DNA of 21,794 bases from a virus. The translations under genes were made by a program, and so were the position numbers. Positions 8,906 to 21,029 of the stretch are shown one piece after another; position 1 is the first letter of the stretch, and the number at the start of each line of letters is the position of its first letter. Where the stretch lies: IMG/VR virus record IMGVR_UViG_3300023181_000085, positions 1-21,794 of that record; one strand, written 5' to 3'. The notes under the pieces are model-generated. The model had not been told where the DNA came from. It saw only the letters and a list, made by a program, of their open reading frames with translations, and did no database searches.

Positions 8906-9637
8906 TTACGCCGTAACAGTGACCACTGTGGTGTCTGTCTTGGTTGGGTCGCTAACGGAAGTTGCTGTGATTGTTGAGGTGCCGACCGCGACACCGCTGA
9001 CCCGACCGCTAGAGTTAACGGTTGCATTCGCTGGAGTGCTGGAGGTCCATGTTACGGCTTGGCTGGCAGCAGCAGGAGTAACAACGTGGTCGATGTTTGT
9101 TACGTTGCCCACAGCTACGGTAGCGGTTGCTGGCGTAGTGATTACTGCGGTAACCGGTACAGGCGTTGCAGTTGTGATAACGCTAGGCAAGCCGCCAGGA
9201 CGCGACGTTGCGCTTGCAGTAGTCGAGTAAGTAGCGATGTCGTCGTAAGGATACTCTTCAGTGTATTCAGTCAGAACGCAGAATGCCATTGTGGTATTGA
9301 TTGGACCGGTAAGGCGCCACCAAACATACGGCTGAGGATCTGTCTCGAAGTGGTTGGCAAGCAGCTGCTGGTTAGAAGTTGTGCCGTCATCACGTTTGGT
9401 AACGCCGTCAATAGACAGATCAAACGTTTTATAGGTAATCAAGGTGTCACGGAAGCTGCCAACCGAATCATCAGCAGTAGCATCTACGGTGTCAGCCGAC
9501 ATGGTTTTAGACTTGTTACGGGCAGCACCAAGAGGCAGCCACGTCAACGTCATAGGATCTACATCGCCGCAAGCAAGCGCGAACTCAGCGAGTACGCTCT
9601 TGCCTACAAATTTGTCCGACGCACAGTTAAGGGCCAC
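8906..9637 (-). CDS. Major tail protein with C-terminal Ig-like domain
   Basis: A 243-residue tail tube protein. Residues 1-150 (MALNCASDKFVGKSVLAEFA to FCVLTEYTEEYPYDDIATY) carry typical tube-subunit features, including FRDTLITYKTFDLSIDGV and a late TEYTEEYPYDDIATYS stretch. Residues ~165-243 are a bacterial Ig-like group 2 domain (VTPAAASQAVTWTSSTPANA, SSGRVSGVAVGTSTITA), which probably decorates the outside of the tail, as in lambda gpV. The start is GTG at 9637 with a near-perfect AAGGAGGTG just upstream, so high expression is expected despite the GTG. An extra -10-like element at 9691-9696 may give it its own transcript. It follows the tail terminator gene and is the last gene of its unit. 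Confidence 0.9.
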   Translation of the reverse strand: MALNCASDKFVGKSVLAEFALACGDVDPMTLTWLPLGAARNKSKTMSADTVDATADDSVGSFRDTLITYKTFDLSIDGVTKRDDGTTSNQQLLANHFETDPQPYVWWRLTGPINTTMAFCVLTEYTEEYPYDDIATYSTTASATSRPGGLPSVITTATPVPVTAVITTPATATVAVGNVTNIDHVVTPAAASQAVTWTSSTPANATVNSSGRVSGVAVGTSTITATSVSDPTKTDTTVVTVTA

Positions 9638-10838: not shown

Positions 10839-10928
10839 CTAGCGCTCCTTAGGCGGCTGAGGATTTACAGCGCCAGTATCAATAGGCTGATAGCCATTGC
10901 CATTCTTGCCATCGTATTGATTAGCCAT
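10839..10928 (-). CDS. 29-residue small protein in the connector operon
   Basis: A small frame encoding a 29-residue polar protein (MANQYDGKNGNGYQPIDTG, then AVNPQPPKER). Its ATG overlaps the stop of the adaptor-type gene as TAATG, the same junction used elsewhere in this operon, and GGGAAG lies about ten bases upstream. The final codons (AAG GAG CGC TAG) contain the Shine-Dalgarno of the next gene. It fills what would otherwise be a 90-nt gap in a tightly packed operon, so it is either a real small protein or a translated leader that couples the neighbours. It has Gly/Asn/Pro-rich, probably disordered composition. Function unknown. Confidence 0.55.
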   Translation of the reverse strand: MANQYDGKNGNGYQPIDTGAVNPQPPKER

Positions 10929-11317
10929 TAGCAGCACTTCCCGCCAGTTGAAACCCACAGGCCGGCACTTGCGCCAGGAATAGGAGGAATTACAGAGCCA
11001 GTGCATCCAGAAGTATCTAGCATGCTCAGGGTGTTTAGCATTCCCCGATACTTATCCTGCAAATTGTTGTAGCGGAAAGACTGGGAAGCTCCAGAAGGCG
11101 CGGTCTGCGAGCTAATGTACTTGTCGCCAGAAACAATCCCGTACAGGCTCAGCAGGTAGAGATAGATAAGAAGCTGTGTTGAGTCTGAGTATCCAGCACC
11201 ATCTAGACAAGGCTGAATAACTTCAACAGTATCTAGCCAAGCTTGCAGGATAAAATCTGGCGGAATTGGGATACCGATAGAGGTCAGGTATTGTTTAAGC
11301 TGATCTAGAGTCGGCAT
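10928..11317 (-). CDS. Head-tail connector / adaptor-type protein
   Basis: A 129-residue protein of a type found between capsid and neck genes (I associate it with DUF7370). The N-terminal ~75 residues are helical (MPTLDQLKQYLTSIGIPIPP, FILQAWLDTVEVIQPCLDGAGY, STQLLIYLYLLSLYGIVSG), as expected for connector adaptors that line the ring under the portal. The stretch GDKYISSQTAPSGASQSFRY is a strongly conserved feature of these proteins. The C-terminal end is Gly/Pro-rich and finishes GGKCC. The ATG directly abuts the previous stop (TAAATG) and has AGGA seven bases upstream. Confidence 0.75.
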   Translation of the reverse strand: MPTLDQLKQYLTSIGIPIPPDFILQAWLDTVEVIQPCLDGAGYSDSTQLLIYLYLLSLYGIVSGDKYISSQTAPSGASQSFRYNNLQDKYRGMLNTLSMLDTSGCTGSVIPPIPGASAGLWVSTGGKCC

Positions 11318-11617
11318 TTATCGATCCTTAATCTTCAAGTAAATAGACCGAACAGCCGTGCGCCCGTCGACAGTGGTGATTGCGCAGGTAACGTATCCAG
11401 TTGTTCCGTTCGTGCCGCCAGATACCCACGCAGTAGCAGCGGTAGGCGTATTGCTAAACGAGTCCAACACGACACCTACAGGCTCGAACTCAACGCTAAC
11501 AATCGTATCCTCGATATCAGCCAGGTACGCAGACCAGTCAAACGTGTAATCCAGAACCTCTTCAGGATCTTTAACAATCGTAGGCTTATCCGGACCTCCA
11601 GTGTATGTCTCTGTCAT
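11318..11617 (-). CDS. Fiber-tail adaptor-like protein (Gp77 type)
   Basis: A 99-residue protein resembling those annotated as phage fiber-tail adaptor (Gp77-like). Matching features are the KDPEEVLDYTFDWSAYL segment, the strand SVEFEPVGVVLDS, and AWVSGGTNGTTGYVTCAITT followed by DGRTAVRSIYLKIKDR; this is a compact beta-sandwich pattern. Despite the family name it lies here among connector genes, so its exact attachment point is unclear. It overlaps the repeat protein gene by ATGA at 11614-11617 and abuts the next gene. Confidence 0.72.
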   Translation of the reverse strand: MTETYTGGPDKPTIVKDPEEVLDYTFDWSAYLADIEDTIVSVEFEPVGVVLDSFSNTPTAATAWVSGGTNGTTGYVTCAITTVDGRTAVRSIYLKIKDR

Positions 11618-12978
11618 TCTGCGATGTTCCTGTTCTGAGGTTCTGGAGCTAGCGTTCTATTCTGCGCTTCTAGTGATGTCGTGCGATTCTGCGCGATCGT
11701 CGAAACAACTCTGTTCTGCGTTACAGGATAAAACTGTCTTAGCTGAGCGTTAACCGGGTTAATGCGAACCTGAGCGCCTATAAACAGTGTTCTTTCAAGA
11801 GAGAATTCAACCTCTCCAGCAGAAGCCGATGCGGACATTATATCATCGGCGTTTGCGGAAAATAGGCTGCCGTAAATCTCTATACTTGATTCGGACGCTG
11901 CTGAGTCTGAGGATTCATCAATCTGGGCATAAGCCGATATAAATACAGCCGACGACGAGGTAGATGAGTCGCTCGGCACCTGAGATTCCAGAGACGCACT
12001 CACGCTAGACGATAGCGCACTAGATACATAGTCAGACTGAAGCGTTACCGAGGAATGTGCAGAGATCGCTACCGATGACAGCGACGAAGCTTGGTCATTA
12101 GCAAGCTGCACAGCTAACGATGCCGAGATAGAAGACTGCGAAGAGGCTTGGCTTGACACCGAGTCGCCCTGGTTAGTCAGCGATGCAGATCCAGAAACAC
12201 CGACCTGACCTTGACCAGATACAGTATCCGACTGCATGGTAATTGCCGACTGAGCCGCAATCCCAGCAGCAGACGCAGACGAAGCCGAATCGTTAGCCAG
12301 CGTTACAGCCAGAGTCGCGTTAATCCCCGACGATGCAAACGTCAGGTTATCCGCGCTGAACTCAAGGAATGATGCGTGATCAGTGGCAAATGTGTTAGTG
12401 ACCGTGGTCACTACGGCGCCATCGAAGAACAGTGTGCCTGTGCGCGTGACAGCCAGTGTCTGAGTGTGGATCTGCCAGACTTCGCATACCAGCACGTCTC
12501 CAGCTAATGCGGCAACTTGAGTCGTCGCAGTAGTCGTTCCCTGGTTGACTCGCTCGGTAGTGTTGCTGACAATAGCGTCACCAGTCAGACCAAGCGCATC
12601 TCCGACTGTTCCGACCTTAGCCCCTGTAGACGGTCGCCATACGTACACGTTGAACCGTAGATCGCCCCCCAGGGCCATCATGGTTCCGTTCATCGAGTTG
12701 GCAATGTTCAGTGTTACTGTCTGTCCTGCACCGCCTACGTTCTGGTTTGCCGACAAAGGATCAGAACAGAAGAAGCCGTAGAAGCCAGTTTGCTCAGAAA
12801 GCGTTGCAAGACTCGCGGCGACCGTTGAGGATTGCAAAACCCCCTTCGTCGTATCCATTTTCCTAAGCGTGTTCGCGCCAGTTGCCGAGTAGCTAGCAAC
12901 CAACGACGACTGCTCGCCAGCAGGAAACGTGCCGCTTAGCGCATTGCTAGCAGCATGGAAGTACAGCCGCGTTGCCAT
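11614..12978 (-). CDS. Virion protein with serine-rich 21-residue repeats and QNR repeats
   Basis: A 454-residue protein. Residues 1-218 form a beta-rich N-terminal domain (starting MATRLYFHAASNALSG, with VYVWRPSTGAKVG and GDVLVCEVWQIHTQ) that I recognise from phage structural regions without known function. Residues 219-388 are eight tandem repeats of 21 residues (the third is 23), each beginning Ile/Val-x-Ala/Gly and carrying Asp at position 12 followed by a Ser-rich part. Residues 421-454 are four 9-residue units beginning QNR. Such repeats suggest an extended fibrous stalk or a head or neck fiber. The gene overlaps its neighbours by TAATG and ATGA, so it is a regular member of the operon. 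It may be exposed on the virion. Confidence 0.75.
   Translation of the reverse strand: MATRLYFHAASNALSGTFPAGEQSSLVASYSATGANTLRKMDTTKGVLQSSTVAASLATLSEQTGFYGFFCSDPLSANQNVGGAGQTVTLNIANSMNGTMMALGGDLRFNVYVWRPSTGAKVGTVGDALGLTGDAIVSNTTERVNQGTTTATTQVAALAGDVLVCEVWQIHTQTLAVTRTGTLFFDGAVVTTVTNTFATDHASFLEFSADNLTFASSGINATLAVTLANDSASSASAAGIAAQSAITMQSDTVSGQGQVGVSGSASLTNQGDSVSSQASSQSSISASLAVQLANDQASSLSSVAISAHSSVTLQSDYVSSALSSSVSASLESQVPSDSSTSSSAVFISAYAQIDESSDSAASESSIEIYGSLFSANADDIMSASASAGEVEFSLERTLFIGAQVRINPVNAQLRQFYPVTQNRVVSTIAQNRTTSLEAQNRTLAPEPQNRNIAE
11617..11718 (-). repeat. Four tandem 9-codon QNR repeats
   Basis: The end of the 454-residue protein is built of units QNRVVSTIA, QNRTTSLEA, QNRTLAPEP and a shortened QNRNIAE, a 27-bp period in the DNA. 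Only QNR is constant. The short period suggests slippage or gene conversion and may allow length variation between related phages. Confidence 0.85.
11815..12324 (-). repeat. Eight 21-codon serine-rich repeats
   Basis: Eight protein repeats in the 454-residue virion protein, seven of exactly 21 residues and one of 23. Examples are ISASLAVQLANDQASS and ISAHSSVTLQSDYVSS; Asp at position 12 is kept in all eight, position 1 is Ile or Val, and Ser dominates positions 13-21. Identity between units at DNA level is low by eye, so the array is old or under selection for pattern, not sequence. Confidence 0.85.
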
Positions 12979-13382
12979 TACGCGTTGCCGGTGGTCAGCG
13001 TGAAGGAGTTAACGGTTACAACTTGCGATACGGCGATGCTGGTGTTGTCGAGGATCATGTCTCCGCCGCCAGCAGTGATAGTGCATGTGCCTTGCGCGTG
13101 CGTAGTGGTGCCAGCAGTGTCGACGATTCGGAAGTATCCAGCCGTACCAGCAGCAGCGCCAGTGCCGGACCATGTGCCAGCCTTAGCCTTCACGCCTGAT
13201 GCAGCAGCGCCCATCCAGTCAGACGGCAATGCCATCTCGACCAGCAGCGTACCGGTAGCAGCAGCCGCACAGTTAGCTGGAACAGAGCCTGTGTAGATTC
13301 TCAGCTTAGCCGACGTGCCAGCAGCCGTTTCGAATGCGTCAAGGCGTGCGTTGTTTACTGCTACCGAATACTGGAGTGTCAT
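12978..13382 (-). CDS. Conserved phage virion-associated protein, function unknown
   Basis: A 134-residue protein of a type common in phage structural regions (starts MTLQYSVAVNNARLDAFETA). It has a short helix and then Gly/Ala/Thr-rich beta strands (KLRIYTGSVPANCAAAATGT, LPSDWMGAAASGVKAKAGTW, GYFRIVDTAGTTTHAQGT), ending VNSFTLTTGNA. It is the first gene of the unit running to the major tail protein, 27 nt downstream of the candidate -10 at 13410-13415. It is followed by the repeat protein with a TAATG overlap, so the two may act together as capsid or neck decoration. That role is inferred; no homologue of known function comes to mind. Confidence 0.7.
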   Translation of the reverse strand: MTLQYSVAVNNARLDAFETAAGTSAKLRIYTGSVPANCAAAATGTLLVEMALPSDWMGAAASGVKAKAGTWSGTGAAAGTAGYFRIVDTAGTTTHAQGTCTITAGGGDMILDNTSIAVSQVVTVNSFTLTTGNA

Positions 13383-13481: not shown

Positions 13482-13850
13482 ATGAACGAACAATTGCAGC
13501 AGGCTCTAGCTACAATAATCGGCAAAACCATGCAAGGAGTAGACTCTAGCATCAGCTTCTTGAGCGCTGAAATTCCTGATGTCATTCATCAGTTGCTGGT
13601 TTTTAAATTAGCTCAGGCATGCGTATTGCTGGTCATGGCAATCATATATCTGATTGCTTGGTCGGTATTTTCATACAGGTCGTTTAAGCACGACTGGCAT
13701 GAAGGGATTCAGATGGTAACTGTATTTGCTGGAGGGGCAGTAGCAGTAACATCGGCTATCAGCTTATTCATCAATGGTGGAGTGGCTCTGCAAATCTGGC
13801 TGGCCCCAAAGATCTACCTAATCGAATACGCCGCTTCACTCGCCAAGTAA
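13482..13850 (+). CDS. Small two-pass membrane protein (holin-like candidate)
   Basis: A 122-residue plus-strand protein with two predicted membrane segments, about residues 43-65 (LAQACVLLVMAIIYLIAWSV) and 78-98 (MVTVFAGGAVAVTSAISLFI), separated by a charged loop RSFKHDWHEG. The N-terminal 40 residues look amphipathic. GGAGG lies five bases before the ATG. It is a single-gene cassette with its own promoter-like sequence and a strong bidirectional terminator, opposite in direction to its neighbours. Size and topology would fit a class II-like holin, but no endolysin or spanin is next to it. It could equally be a superinfection-exclusion or other host-acting membrane protein. Confidence 0.72.
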   Translation: MNEQLQQALATIIGKTMQGVDSSISFLSAEIPDVIHQLLVFKLAQACVLLVMAIIYLIAWSVFSYRSFKHDWHEGIQMVTVFAGGAVAVTSAISLFINGGVALQIWLAPKIYLIEYAASLAK

Positions 13851-13880: not shown

Positions 13881-14068
13881 CATTCCTCGTCTTTATCTTT
13901 TGGTGGACGACCGCGCCGAGGGGTTGCTACTTCTAGAGTCTTCTCTTCCACTGGCTTTTCAGGAAGCTCACGCACATTTGGCTTGAGCGCTGGATGAAGG
14001 TTGGCAGTCTCAATGATGTCGCCAACCTTGACCGGATACCACGGGATTACTACTTCAAACCTTGCCAT
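13880..14068 (-). CDS. Small head-region protein with AT-hook-like basic tail
   Basis: A 62-residue protein downstream of the HNH gene and, without that insertion, downstream of the major capsid protein. The N-terminal half (MARFEVVIPWYPVKVGDIIE, then TANLHPALKPNVREL) resembles small proteins often seen between capsid and connector genes. The C-terminus carries PRRGRPPKDKDEE, close to the RGRP core of an AT-hook, after an acidic/proline linker. The ATG lies inside the last codons of the HNH gene (19-nt overlap), which also supply the AAAGG Shine-Dalgarno. A structural or DNA-organising role is possible; none is established. Confidence 0.65.
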   Translation of the reverse strand: MARFEVVIPWYPVKVGDIIETANLHPALKPNVRELPEKPVEEKTLEVATPRRGRPPKDKDEE

Positions 14069-14709
14069 TTAGCACCTTTCTTAATGTTTTCTGACGCCCA
14101 CATAGGGCGCAGATTTGATAGACAGTTTATCATTTTTGCGTCTGTTACCCCTTGCTCAACGAATCTTGCTATTGGCTTTACGTGATCTACGTGCCATTCG
14201 CCGTGATTATCCCAAGACATTCCTGGCTTGAAATTGAACTCTATACGCTCCTTGAATTTTTCTGGCGTGTATCCAAGACGGTCTTTCGTCCTGTCTCCCT
14301 TTCTTCTCTCAGTGCCTGCCTTTATCACACACTGGGTAATCATCGCTCGACACTGTATAAGCCAAGGCTTTTTAGCCTTTATTTTTGCTTGGTACTTCCT
14401 GACGCTAGCTAGAAATGGCTCTGATTTCTGGTAAGCGGCCCTCCTTTCTTGAAATTCAGGGCACTCCTTAGCCTTGTGATAATCAGCCTTTTTCTCTTCC
14501 TTTATTCGATCCTTGTGCTTCTCGTAATATCTTTTTCTTGATTTTGCATGGTATTCGAGAGGCAATGCTGCCTGCCTAAGCCTGGCGCATTCTAGGCACC
14601 CCGTGCTTGATACGGTTCTCTCAGTAACATGCCCTTCTTTGCACGGCTCGCCGGTGAAATACCTCTTCAATCCAAGGCTTGCGGCCTCTTTCCTAGAAAT
14701 AATCTGCAT
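14050..14709 (-). CDS. Free-standing HNH (homing-type) endonuclease
   Basis: A 219-residue HNH nuclease lying between the capsid gene and the next head-region gene, a typical site for a free-standing homing endonuclease. The N-terminus has a zinc-binding pattern, Cys23-x3-His27 and Cys38-x2-Cys41 (YFTGEPCKEGHVTERTV, GCLECAR). Residues 50-115 are highly charged and helical and probably bind DNA. The HNH core is at 171-210: His173, Asp175-His176 in EWHVDHVKP, Asn199 in CLSNLRPMW and Asn208 in SENIKKGAK, so all key residues are present. The ATG is preceded by GGAG 11 bases upstream, but that GGAG is part of a hairpin (see leader feature). It would cut a related phage lacking the gene and spread by repair. 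Packaging-associated HNH proteins exist, but those sit beside terminase, which is not nearby. Confidence 0.88.
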   Translation of the reverse strand: MQIISRKEAASLGLKRYFTGEPCKEGHVTERTVSSTGCLECARLRQAALPLEYHAKSRKRYYEKHKDRIKEEKKADYHKAKECPEFQERRAAYQKSEPFLASVRKYQAKIKAKKPWLIQCRAMITQCVIKAGTERRKGDRTKDRLGYTPEKFKERIEFNFKPGMSWDNHGEWHVDHVKPIARFVEQGVTDAKMINCLSNLRPMWASENIKKGAKWQGLK

Positions 14710-14795: not shown

Positions 14796-15848
14796 TTAAG
14801 CGAAGTTCGCGCCGTAGAAAACACCTGCGTGGCCGTCACCATCTTTCTTGACTTGCATGCCCATGCCAGTTAGCAAGCGGAAATTGTAGTTATCTTCCGG
14901 CAGTTGACGTGGGATCGGGGTAACGTTGGTAGCCATTGCGATGATCGGGCTAACGTACTGCTTGCTCAGGCTGATAGCCAGGAACTCGTTACCAACCAGA
15001 GCGTAGGTTGGCACGACTTCCATGCCAGCCAGCCAAGGACCGATTGCAGTCAGCGAAGTGCCAGCCAAAGCGCCGTTGACCACGTAAGGCTTAAGCAGGT
15101 TACCGTAGATCTCGTAAGAGACGTACATGCGATCAACCTTAGTGACCTTGTTGGTGCGAACGGAAGTACCGAAAGCGCCAGTGGTCAGGAAGGCAGCCCA
15201 CTGCTCAGCAGTAGCGGTGGTCAGATCGATGTTGGCGCCGGAAGCATCCAGATCGATTTTGACGGTGTTGCGGTGGTTCTTCAGGCCTTGACCTGGTTTG
15301 CCATCAACAACAATCTCAGCCGAACCGTTCAGCGCGTAGCTTACGAGAGCCTTGTTGTGTTTGATGAGCTTGGCGCGCTGGCTATCCAGAATAAGATCCA
15401 GGCCAGCGTCACGCAGGCCTACAACATGGCGCCAGTTAGCGCCGAAGCCGGAGCGGAACATTGGAACAGGGTCGCCATCGGTTTCGTAACCGGTATGGTC
15501 GAAGCCGTGTTTGCCGTGGCCAGACATGGTGATAACAACTTCGTCAGCGATGTCGGTGCTGGTTACGTACTGGCGAACAGTTGCGCCAATGGACTGAACC
15601 ACTTGCACAGGTTGCAGGTATTCGAGGATCTCGTAACCGTCAGCTGCGCGGGTAGCCTCTACAACGGTGTTGTCCACTGCACGCCAGAAATCGGAAGGCA
15701 GGCCAGCGTTAGCGGCGAACTGGAACGAACCGTATTCGCGCTGTAGACCAGCCTGCTTTGCGTTGAACGCGCCACGGTTATCGAGAACATACTGTGCATG
15801 TTCGCGCAGCTTCTCGTGTTGGAGCAAAGTATTTGCGGTGATAATCAT
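14796..15848 (-). CDS. Major capsid protein (DUF6260-like)
   Basis: A 350-residue capsid protein that I place with the DUF6260-type HK97-fold family. It starts MIITANTLLQHEKLREHAQYV and contains QREYGSFQFAANAGLPSDFW, a long stretch ending in LIKHNKALVSYALNG and MYVSYEIYGNLLKPYV, and finishes VKKDGDGHAGVFYGANFA. It lies directly downstream of the protease/scaffold and cement genes, the usual order, and before a strong terminator. AAGGT overlaps the cement stop codon and sits seven bases before the ATG. I see no long N-terminal delta domain, in keeping with a separate scaffold. The 280-codon opposite-strand frame here is a shadow. Confidence 0.9.
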   Translation of the reverse strand: MIITANTLLQHEKLREHAQYVLDNRGAFNAKQAGLQREYGSFQFAANAGLPSDFWRAVDNTVVEATRAADGYEILEYLQPVQVVQSIGATVRQYVTSTDIADEVVITMSGHGKHGFDHTGYETDGDPVPMFRSGFGANWRHVVGLRDAGLDLILDSQRAKLIKHNKALVSYALNGSAEIVVDGKPGQGLKNHRNTVKIDLDASGANIDLTTATAEQWAAFLTTGAFGTSVRTNKVTKVDRMYVSYEIYGNLLKPYVVNGALAGTSLTAIGPWLAGMEVVPTYALVGNEFLAISLSKQYVSPIIAMATNVTPIPRQLPEDNYNFRLLTGMGMQVKKDGDGHAGVFYGANFA

Positions 15849-18710: not shown

Positions 18711-20084
18711 ATGACTGTCAATGCACCACCTGAATTGATGATGGCGCTGAATAACCTGGCTGAGCGGCAGATTGCTGCGTCCAGGCAGTTGGCGGCGTTT
18801 GGTACTGGGGCGCTGGATACAAAGCGTCACGAGAGAGCGTACTGCGAGTACGGCTTCCCTGATAATCCAGGTTTCAGTGAGTTCTATCGCGTTTACAAGC
18901 GTCATGGCGTTGGTCATGGGGCGTTGATGCAGATCCTGAACAAGACATGGCAGACGAACCCTTGGGTTATCGAGGGAGAAGATGAGTTTGATGAATCTCG
19001 CGATGAAACCCAGTGGGAAAAGGATGTCAAGAGACTTTTCAAGAAGAAAAGCGTATGGGCCGCCATCAAAGAGACCGACAAGCGCAAGATGGTTGGCGGG
19101 TATGCCGGCCTTATCATCCAAGTTCGTGACTCCAAGCAATGGAATCAGCCGCTCAAGAACGTCAGCGCTGCGGCAATCGTTAAGTTTATTCCTGCATGGC
19201 GCGGCTCGCTCACTGTATCGGTGTGGGACACTGAGCAGGCTAGCCCGACATACGGCGAGCCGCTCATGTACACCTACAACGAACACAGTGAAGCGTCGGG
19301 GAGCTCTCCGCGCCAAGTAGAGATGCATCCTTCTCGCGTTATCGTGTTTGGCTCGATTACTGAGCCAGAGTCGGTATACGAGCCAATCCTGAACGCGCTC
19401 ATATCGCTGGAGAAGGTGACTGGCGGTTCTGGCGAGGCATACATCAAGGCTGCTGCTCGTGCTATCCATGTCGGATTCAGCAAAGATGCAGATTTGCAGA
19501 GCATTGCCCGCGCTCACGGAATGCAGCTATCAGAAATCGGGACGCTATACGACTCCGTGGTGGATGGCCTTAACCGAGGCATTGACTCGGCAATCATCAC
19601 GCAAGACGGCACAGTTACCGCTATCACGTCTGCCGTACCTGATCCTGTAGGCCCGTTCGAAGTCAACCTGCAAGAGGTAGGCGCGGGTATCGGTGTAGGC
19701 TCAACGATCATCGTAGGCCGTCAGACTGGCACATTAGCAAGCAACGAGGACATCAAGGCGTTCAACCGGTTCGGCCAAGGTCGCCGCCTAAATGAAGTCG
19801 GTCCTAACTCGCGCCTAGTGGTTGAATGGATGATGGATCACGGCGTCATTGAGCGCCGCGAAGACTTCGAGGTTATGTTCGATGAGCTGACTGAATCGAC
19901 TGATGCTGAGAAGTTGTTGAACGTCAAGACCATGAGCGAGGTCAATGCTTCCAGTCTTGCAAGTGGCGAAATGATCTTTAGTCCAGAAGAGATGCGTACG
20001 GCAGCAGGTTACGAGAATACAGAGGCTCTTACTCCGCTTCCTGATGTAGAGCCGACAACAGATCCTACGGCAACCGTGCAATAA
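18711..20084 (+). CDS. Portal protein (DUF1073 / phage portal type)
   Basis: A 457-residue protein of the DUF1073 portal family (starts MTVNAPPELMMALNNLAERQ). Portals form the twelve-subunit ring through which DNA is packaged and ejected. Family-like segments are YCEYGFPDNPGFSEFYRVYKR, LNKTWQTNPWVIEGEDE, GGYAGLIIQVRD, EMHPSRVIVFG, and the crown-region helices EKVTGGSGEAYIKAAARAIHV; the conserved RQTGTLASNEDIKAFNRF comes near residue 345. It is followed by a head-morphogenesis gene as in most phages, but both are on the strand opposite to capsid and tail. Databases often name this family 'anti-CBASS Acb1-like'; that name does not describe this protein. Confidence 0.9.
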   Translation: MTVNAPPELMMALNNLAERQIAASRQLAAFGTGALDTKRHERAYCEYGFPDNPGFSEFYRVYKRHGVGHGALMQILNKTWQTNPWVIEGEDEFDESRDETQWEKDVKRLFKKKSVWAAIKETDKRKMVGGYAGLIIQVRDSKQWNQPLKNVSAAAIVKFIPAWRGSLTVSVWDTEQASPTYGEPLMYTYNEHSEASGSSPRQVEMHPSRVIVFGSITEPESVYEPILNALISLEKVTGGSGEAYIKAAARAIHVGFSKDADLQSIARAHGMQLSEIGTLYDSVVDGLNRGIDSAIITQDGTVTAITSAVPDPVGPFEVNLQEVGAGIGVGSTIIVGRQTGTLASNEDIKAFNRFGQGRRLNEVGPNSRLVVEWMMDHGVIERREDFEVMFDELTESTDAEKLLNVKTMSEVNASSLASGEMIFSPEEMRTAAGYENTEALTPLPDVEPTTDPTATVQ

Positions 20085-20086
20085 TC

Positions 20087-20109
20087 AAAGGCCCTACGGG
20101 GCCTTTCTT
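20087..20109 (+). terminator. Intrinsic terminator between portal and head-morphogenesis genes
   Basis: AAAGGCCC and GGGCCTTT form a perfect 8-bp stem with a UACG loop, followed by CTTAATT. The T-run is short and interrupted, so termination may be partial and lower the downstream gene relative to the portal gene. The palindrome could also act leftwards. Confidence 0.7.
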
Positions 20110-20123
20110 AATTAGAGGTTTAC

Positions 20124-21029
20124 ATGGCAGCAGGTAGCCCAATTCTTCCCCGCAGTTTGGCAGACGCGACCGGCCAAGATGCTCGCGAAAGGCGATTCAT
20201 GAAGGACTTCGACCGTCGCGTTAACGCAATCGGTAAAGAGGTTCTGCGAATCTTAGGCGAACAAAACTACACCGTCGTCACGCTGAACGCTCTAGAAGTA
20301 AATGCCAGTACTTATCAGTTCGCCCTGGATCAGGCGATCCTATCTGGCATCAATTCAGAAATCGAGCGTATCTGTAACTTGATACTTCTTGAGGGCGGTG
20401 AGGCTGAATTATGGAGCATGCGCGCATACATAGAAGGCGCATATCAGCAGGGCACAGCTATGACTGCGGCCAACCTAACCGTCCAATCTGAGCTGTATGC
20501 ACTAACCAAGCCAACCATAGACGCAATCCTGTTCAGCCCTCCATATCGCAAGCGCATCAGTCTGCTAGCCGCCCGAGAATTCGAACTTATGCAGGGTTTC
20601 AGTCAGCAGATGAAATCGGATCTTGCACAGACGTTAACGCGAGGGATGATCGCCGGCCAGAATCCACGAGTGATCGCCAAAGACATTCAGGCGCGTACAG
20701 GCGTGAACCGTTCGCGTGCTGAGCGGATTGCGCGGACCGAGGTTACTTCTGCGTTCAGGAAGGCAAGGATGGATGAGGCGCAGGCAGCGCAGACGGATCT
20801 AGGTATCAATACTCGTCTCATGCACCTAAGCGCTCTGAGCCAAACTACCAGGCCCTCGCATAGAGCAAGACATGCGCATCTGTATACCATTCAGGAGGAG
20901 CGGGATTGGTGGGCTGTAACGCCTAATTCCATAAACTGTCGATGCAGCACCGTGGAAGTCTTGACCGACTCTAAAGGCAATCCCCTATCCCCCTCAATCA
21001 TCGAGCGAGCAAAGCGCAAGCTAGGCTAG
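20124..21029 (+). CDS. Head morphogenesis protein (SPP1 gp7 / Mu F-like)
   Basis: A 301-residue minor head protein. The C-terminal half has the SPP1 gp7/Mu F signature: GMIAGQNPRVIAKDIQARTG, RSRAERIARTEVTSAFRKAR, then HRARHAHLYTIQEERDWW and the metal-binding-like NSINCRCSTVEVL. The N-terminal ~150 residues are helical. In SPP1 and Mu such proteins bind the portal, enter the prohead in few copies and affect DNA entry. AGAGG lies five bases before the ATG. It is the last gene of the inverted head cassette and ends about 40 bases before the large hairpin. Length is normal for the family. Confidence 0.9.
   Translation: MAAGSPILPRSLADATGQDARERRFMKDFDRRVNAIGKEVLRILGEQNYTVVTLNALEVNASTYQFALDQAILSGINSEIERICNLILLEGGEAELWSMRAYIEGAYQQGTAMTAANLTVQSELYALTKPTIDAILFSPPYRKRISLLAAREFELMQGFSQQMKSDLAQTLTRGMIAGQNPRVIAKDIQARTGVNRSRAERIARTEVTSAFRKARMDEAQAAQTDLGINTRLMHLSALSQTTRPSHRARHAHLYTIQEERDWWAVTPNSINCRCSTVEVLTDSKGNPLSPSIIERAKRKLG

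Follow-up and report, generated by a model that had tools for sequence, protein, structure and literature searches.

The 454-residue protein encoded on the minus strand (complement(11614..12978)) of a 21,794-base virus record, analysed here over its full length as the window, probably serves as the string in a beads-on-a-string fibre at the neck of the virion. Fibres of this beaded kind are already known from a few structures. Our searches of the literature and of Pfam, PHROG and PDB turned up no description of a recognisable, widespread family of 21-residue string repeats, or of its pairing with bead and adaptor genes. Individual phages have been found by cryo-EM to carry beaded appendages, whose flexible strings have given poor predictions and in some cases lack an assigned protein. 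A string signature combined with bead and adaptor genes would make beaded fibres recognisable in genomes.

Repeats and tail of the string protein

The string protein consists of an N-terminal domain, an array of 21-residue repeats and a tail of 9-residue repeats (Table 1). A first-pass annotation of the DNA had singled out positions 11617-12324, which do cover residues 219-454, but the feature also includes the N-terminal 215-residue domain and two flanking genes. Its description of eight Ser-rich units in residues 219-388, each opening with Ile or Val and carrying Asp as its twelfth residue, held in all eight units. The Asp is the sole invariant column, and an invariant Asp across eight units arose in none of 3000 shuffles of the region that were allowed the same freedom of phase and insertion. 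Units start at residues 219, 240, 261, 284, 305, 326, 347 and 368, and a two-residue insertion behind the third unit makes one spacing 23. Autocorrelation of the repeat region peaked at lag 21 (z 6.4), with a second peak at lag 42 (z 4.9).

Autocorrelation of the tail (residues 389-454) gave lag 9 with z 6.5. The four 9-residue QNR units noted there in the first pass are real, in that the last four units, and these alone, read QNR, but the tail is longer: [EQ]xR recurs at 403, 412, 421, 430, 439 and 448 and is preceded by ERT at 395, for about seven units.

Across the protein repeats, Tandem Repeats Finder detected no DNA tandem repeat, and the repeats have therefore diverged at the DNA level. 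The whole 454-residue string matched no phage record by tblastn up to E 1 and no PDB sequence up to E 5. It has no Pfam family, and its best PHROG match was phrog_38872 at E 0.8. The same PHROG was matched by one of eight orthologues (0.0038) and by two of ten other repeat proteins (L087 at 1.5e-20 and L043 at 6.2e-8; L numbers are our labels for loci). Matches of ten other strings to Pfam were at chance level, except for Laminin_G_3 in L102.

Table 1. Features of the string cassette and neighbouring genes in the window.
Feature	Position	Strand	Basis
Major capsid protein	14796..15848	-	PF19774/phrog_771
134-aa bead protein, phrog_3758	12978..13382	-	phrog_3758 E 1.3e-33; garland-type fold (predicted)
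String protein	11614..12978	-	454 aa; N-terminal domain followed by eight 21-aa string units and about seven 9-aa anchor units
Residues 1-215, N-terminal domain; presumed adhesin or cap at the distal tip	12334..12978	-	dN/dS, stand-alone copies
Eight 21-residue string repeats, residues 219-388	11815..12324	-	Lag 21, shared profile
9-residue [EQ]xR anchor repeats, residues 389-454	11617..11814	-	Lag 9, constant number, Gp77 association
Gp77-family fibre-tail adaptor of 99 aa; presumed to form a ring on the neck that holds the strings	11318..11617	-	PF23148 E 2.9e-25
129-aa DUF7370 protein; first of the connector/tail-completion genes	10928..11317	-	PF24085 E 1e-41, phrog_786

Bead and adaptor genes beside the string

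The bead gene lies upstream of the string and the Gp77-family adaptor gene downstream, and this order was the same in all seven other members of the window clade (L017-L023). After the adaptor come the DUF7370 gene, a match to tail completion/Neck1, the tail terminator and the major tail protein. The cassette sits between capsid and connector genes, in agreement with the earlier observation that the protein is encoded among connector genes and not with the tail fibres. By tblastn, the major capsid protein matched 332 phage records. No sheath gene was seen in this 21.8-kb fragment, and for that reason the phage looks like a siphophage.

An AF2 model of the bead monomer, built from an alignment of 72 sequences (the window plus 71 of 80 kept loci, see below), reached pLDDT 93 and pTM 0.86. 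Its closest structural match was 9rkv_A (Z 13.5, rmsd 2.4 over 131, VIA; Foldseek E 2.7e-6; profile E 0.0057), from an entry titled 'Agrobacterium phage 7-7-1 tail fibers'. Going by lengths, entry title and papers, this chain would be the 7-7-1 garland protein gp014, and on the same grounds 9c39_K from the Sf14 neck (Z 11.0) would be the whisker protein gp31. The model also resembled 9mt4_K of the Bas63 connector (Z 11.1) and A511 gp105 (Z 6.7), as well as, weakly, 8jou_a of GP4 fibre I at Z 7.3 (rmsd 3.5 over 101; Foldseek E 0.26), a value in the tool's range for 'possibly only a common arrangement'.

Profile comparison linked the bead to the Milano garland proteins gp125/gp127 (hhalign 98.0%, E 1.9e-13), with controls A2 and A6 below 0.5%. 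Against GP4-type beads the same comparison gave 0.6% (E 0.1), using a shallow profile of three gp80-type proteins. The bead also matched 44nx_B, by phmmer with a single sequence and by the 72-sequence profile at 3e-11; a six-sequence bead profile gave only chance-level matches to PDB. By profile and modelled fold, the bead is of the garland type and kin to the beads of Milano and 7-7-1.

The downstream neighbour scored 89 bits against PF23148, 'Podophage GP4 fiber-tail adaptor protein gp77', for which the cut-off is 27 bits, and matched 8jou_D weakly (E 0.027). This score bears on the alternative that the cassette is a head decoration or head fibre, in which the Gp77-like protein would be no more than a capsid Ig domain. 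Phage heads often carry Ig domains, phrog_3758 (a virion structural family) is filed under head and packaging, and the cassette follows the capsid gene here, as the bead does in Mwe-JY26. However, the PF23148 score is far above its cut-off, and the bead lies away from head genes elsewhere, after J in Seuss and after tail genes in Pan4. The GP4 adaptor is also reported, in an abstract, to surround the tail with 15-fold symmetry. Another report (PMC10925440) mentions a 15:12 mismatch 'like in the podophage GP4'. We regard a head location as unlikely. The first-pass proposal of a head or neck fibre is thus retained as to a virion fibre, likely on the neck, with the head placement kept only as this rival.

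A bead gene predicts a 21-residue string across viruses

We scanned viral contigs with the bead alignment, collecting bead genes without reference to any string. At least 517 relatives were confirmed, from which 80 loci were kept. Together with the window and phage records, 84 loci were counted after removal of five duplicates (L001, L002, L097, L015 and L078), which were also left out of the tail and cluster counts; 48 of the 84 have at least 4 kb on both sides and are referred to as having full context. A locus was scored as string-positive when a same-strand ORF within 5 kb had a periodicity of 20-23 residues with z above 6.

Among the matches listed, a periodic ORF lay near the bead in 40 of 48 full-context loci and in 13 of the other 36, and the best lag was 21 in 47 of these 53 string-positive loci. 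When beads were clustered at 80% identity and z above 5.5 was required, 26 of 30 full-context clusters had a periodic ORF near the bead, again among the matches listed, with a best lag of exactly 21 in 22 of the 26. The background was 6 of 708 ORFs with such periodicity, and these six include two strings near Gp77 genes (L102 and L011) and two antisense ORFs overlapping them. Across the 26 clusters, the string was adjacent downstream of the bead in 7, further downstream in 17 and upstream in 2.

Four clusters were without a string under these criteria. L024 has a 21-residue string just past 5 kb. For L084, one of two runs gave z 6.1, and the periodicity in L044, close to the 5-kb limit, is of 18 residues; in L054 no periodic ORF was seen within 5 kb. 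Shagrat gp4 and gp5 were also considered and ruled out as 21-residue strings, their best lags being 17 and 35.

The strings resemble one another in their columns as well as in their period. We assembled 37 strings from 27 bead clusters, leaving out L040, L073, L074 and the whole window clade besides the five duplicates, and rotated them to a common register. They share a 21-column profile, with a power of 2.148 (a figure raised by kinship among the 37 strings) against 0.891 for permuted columns (sd 0.025, 40 runs). The profile reads roughly A-G-T-V-x-V-x-G-S-L-S-x-T-L-x-x-A/D-T-L-S-S. The held-out window units scored 2.223 against this profile, compared with 0.835 for permutations (sd 0.231), none of 5000 reaching the observed value. 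The window's invariant Asp falls at profile position 17, where other strings mostly have Ala, Asp or Leu. The window string therefore has each of the features by which we define a string repeat, namely lag 21, the shared column profile and an adjacent bead gene. Hydrophobic residues of the profile alternate at positions 4-14, which suggests, at the level of sequence, that the 21-residue unit is one strand followed by a polar linker.

The first-pass annotation had instead favoured repeats that fold on themselves as a beta-solenoid or beta stalk; under such a reading the stalk may be trimeric and the bead would be a separate neck or decoration protein. Twenty-one residues is a possible length for a solenoid coil, positions 17 and 19 of the profile are hydrophobic in addition to those that alternate, and AF2 placed strands in the repeats, mostly at pLDDT 30-47, all of which count toward a stalk. 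However, the window unit has a single strand-like stretch and a long Ser-rich remainder (residues 219-388 are 31% Ser, and 49% Ser plus Ala), and a stalk would leave the strong association with a garland-type bead gene unexplained. Nor was there a confident solenoid model: the AF2 model of the whole string, from 8 sequences, had a mean pLDDT of 35.6 and is uninformative on a stalk either way. As regards whiskers of the T4 fibritin kind, which are segmented coiled-coil trimers, the same model shows no long helices but commands no confidence. For the C-terminal part of the large LSH1 protein, the authors doubt their own poor-confidence beta-helix (PMC13243795). A self-supporting fold is accordingly unsupported and, in our judgement, quite unlikely, comparative genomics pointing to an extended string with separate beads.

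Whole units vary and the tail is kept

Via the bead gene, seven orthologues of the window string were found among the matches listed (454 to 524 aa), the first in viral contigs being L017, a 92% copy. Comparison among relatives, which the first pass had proposed, showed that the repeat number does vary: strings of the window clade have 8, 10 or 11 Asp-spaced units, the 8 of L020 being an automatic count that breaks within the array. In an alignment of the eight orthologues, the strings differ in length by three gaps that each span exactly 21 columns, along with small gaps of 1-3 columns, and all eight have six [EQ]xR in their last 75 residues. The string part therefore changes by whole units, and the number in the tail is kept.

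Between the window and L017, dN/dS was 0.02 for the N-terminal domain, 0.25 for the repeats and, on few changes, 0.42 for the tail. The faster divergence of the repeats relative to the N-terminal domain would fit a low-complexity, weakly constrained spacer with no defined partner, and a linker under little selection is one option that the LSH1 authors offer (PMC13243795). Nevertheless, the repeat dN/dS is still well below 1, and the 21-residue spacing and shared column profile in 27 bead clusters would be unexpected of an unconstrained spacer, making this explanation highly improbable.

To compare tails, we defined a tail chain as at least three [EQDN]xR at 8-10-residue spacing within the C-terminal 85 residues, across 59 strings. 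Such a chain was found in 11 of 19 strings with Gp77 next to them, eight of the 11 belonging to the window clade so that the association rests on about five lineages, versus 2 of 40 strings without. Both exceptions have Gp77 in the same gene run: in L009 it is cut by the locus end, and is whole and directly next to the string in L015, and in L011 it is the third gene downstream. Eight of the 19 Gp77-adjacent strings are without a chain of three or more, and four of those have a chain of two. Because copy number is constant in eight orthologues and the tail goes with a Gp77 gene, the [EQ]xR tail of the window string is more likely a docking segment than the flexible end read into its QNR units in the first pass, and is probably not loose.

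A Gp77 match was found within the stretch in only 26 of 89 bead loci, some stretches ending early, and the adaptor is therefore one of several anchors, or is encoded elsewhere. The string of L071, a locus with no Gp77, ends in 9-residue AVQPGMTFS units. Such other terminal short repeats in strings with no Gp77 suggest, from their sequences, other adaptors.

Comparison with known beaded assemblies

The window cassette appears to have parts suited to the beaded-fibre assemblies of several known systems. One of the closest is fibre I of the Ralstonia podophage GP4 (PDB 8JOU), which likewise has a Gp77-family adaptor gene and a bead of about 140 residues. A J Mol Biol abstract of 2023 reportedly describes this fibre as five gp80 dimers joined by a rope protein, and the 8jou entry holds ten copies of a 140-aa bead chain. 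However, no sequence link between the bead families was found (hhalign 0.6%), GP4 is a podophage whereas the window phage is siphophage-like, and the units here are of 21 rather than 20 residues. In BcepMigl, a relative of GP4, a repeat gene (lag 20, z 4.6) adjoins the gp80 homologue two genes upstream of the Gp77 gene. No 8jou chain matched BcepMigl gp28 by sequence, within a library of chains with known residues. Counted by eye, gp28 has about seven 20-residue units, compared with the ten 8jou bead chains; if gp28 is the rope, this is a counterpoint to one unit per dimer.

The bead itself is closest to that of the Agrobacterium phages Milano and 7-7-1, by profile for Milano and by fold for 9rkv_A, although their garland circles the baseplate whereas a neck fibre is proposed here. 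For 7-7-1, a garland of homodimers is described as encircling the baseplate (PMC12796354). The Milano garland dimers are said to resemble T4 gp8 and A511 gp105, and A511 dimers of this fold to be beads on a string, with an extended chain across each dimer; the authors leave the Milano string unclear, name gp126 as a possible candidate and count 18 dimers and 6 unassigned blobs in the garland (PMC10811340).

We scanned 132 open segments of Milano, from two stretches covering about 55 of 68.5 kb, at a threshold of z 4.5. Three passed, of which one, Milano_003 (annotated as hypothetical), did so at lag 21, with z 8.1 at this lag in its last 100 residues; the other two had lags of 28 and 29 and are not near. 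The neighbouring Milano_002, annotated as virion-associated, fell below the scan threshold but has DYP repeats, which give z 5.4 at lag 41 and z 4.0 at lag 21. Both are near the garland genes gp125 and gp127 across the ends of the record, and their repeats make Milano_003 and Milano_002 candidates for the string of the Milano garland. The question of the Milano string thus becomes directly testable.

Three further systems share particular aspects with the cassette. The Sf14 whiskers (gp30/gp31) also sit on the neck and combine a threading partner with a dimer that, taking 9c39_K as gp31, shares the bead fold, but they are only short. One gp30 chain is described as threading both whiskers, with the gp30 dimer binding a gp31 dimer that completes them (PMC11821841). 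A-1(L) gp80-82 correspond to what is proposed here in forming five bead-chain fibres on a neck ring, a 15-mer (PMC10966104), but differ in that the beads are trimeric and linked head to tail, with no separate string described in the available part of the report.

LSH1 gp34-36 can be likened to the cassette by description. This three-gene module, always found together, comprises a large protein whose C-terminal part is a doubtful beta-helix or disordered, a dimeric protein that HHpred matches to 8JOU_g, and a third protein that is Ig-like; the authors could build no assembly (PMC13243795). LSH1 gp34 differs from the window string in having a lyase-like beta-helix as its N-terminal domain. Slickus01 is named in the same report for spacers that fold poorly (PMC13243795). 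In a scan of Slickus01, one of 173 segments exceeded z 5.5, namely WGH49876.1 (2,313 aa, lag 20, z 10.4). As a bead carrier Slickus01 was set aside, with no bead match up to E 1.

Proposed fibre and its tip

From the comparisons above we infer that the string physically threads the beads, that the beads form dimers with one repeat to each, how the string is oriented, that the fibre sits on the neck and what its tip does. The C-terminal 9-residue [EQ]xR repeats would attach to a ring formed by the product of the neighbouring gene, the Gp77-family adaptor. In each 21-residue repeat, a single amphipathic, strand-like stretch (I-x-A-x-L-x-V-x-L) would be clamped by a dimer of the 134-aa bead, and the Ser-rich rest of the unit would serve as a linker between beads. 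The N-terminal domain would be the distal tip. The count of 21-residue units would set the number of beads, and so the length of the fibre, at 8 here and at 8, 10 or 11 in orthologues.

Whether this arrangement is general is, to us, an evenly balanced question. In siphophages, myophages and podophages alike, garland-fold dimers would then be strung on repeats of about 21 residues, with the repeat number setting bead number and length, the N-terminal domain acting as a swappable tip and the terminal repeats being matched to the adaptor. If true, such a general string code would identify what strings the Milano garland (Milano_003 and perhaps also Milano_002) and would explain the unmodelled C-terminal part of LSH1 gp34. 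Fibre length and tip may evolve by gain or loss of one 21-residue unit or by domain swap.

The N-terminal domain, which would form the distal tip or cap, had no convincing match in Pfam, PHROG or PDB, the best PDB profile match being at chance level (E 1.4). Relatives of this domain occur in seven further viral contigs. In L098 (226 aa) and L099 (225 aa) the domain is a stand-alone protein. In L102 it forms the start of a protein of 1659 aa that also has a Laminin_G_3 lectin domain (E 3.3e-13) and 20-residue repeats, with a Gp77 gene next to it.

Bead genes and proposed string genes in other loci

The contig carrying the 92% relative of the window string (L002) has a bead/string pair nearly identical to that of the window, although the two capsid-position proteins share only 27% identity. 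This contrast suggests that modules have been exchanged.

Two proteins of phage Milano, Milano_002 and Milano_003, are candidate strings of its garland, the ring of bead dimers around the baseplate. DYP units recur along Milano_002, and the final 100 residues of Milano_003 are periodic at lag 21 (z 8.1). Only one of 173 Slickus01 segments passed z 5.5, namely a 2,313-aa protein whose repeats carry Asp.

Strings in three loci lacking a Gp77 adaptor gene (L071, L063, and L068) end in different short repeats: AVQPGMTFS 9-mers, SETW-type 10-mers, and ~11-residue units. These alternative C-termini are perhaps for adaptors other than Gp77.

Coordinates of features discussed
Feature	Location	Strand	Character
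Capsid-position protein	L002:3720-4727
Capsid-position protein	window 14796-15848
Milano_002 and Milano_003	L105:1527-3916		repeat periodicity
Slickus01 protein	L109:5380-12321	minus	20-residue repeats
Portal (Phage_portal_3) and Mu F-like head protein	window 18711-21029	plus
Major tail protein	window 8906-9637		C-terminal Ig-like Big_2 (PF02368, E 2.1e-9)
219-aa ORF	window 14050-14709		between capsid and bead genes
122-aa ORF	window 13482-13850	plus	hydrophobic segments

Other genes of the window

Pfam searches returned no match for the 219-aa or the 122-aa ORF. By motif, the former resembles an HNH-type endonuclease; the latter lies on the strand opposite to the adjoining structural genes. 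Apart from the portal and Mu F-like head protein genes, the head and tail genes are on the minus strand.
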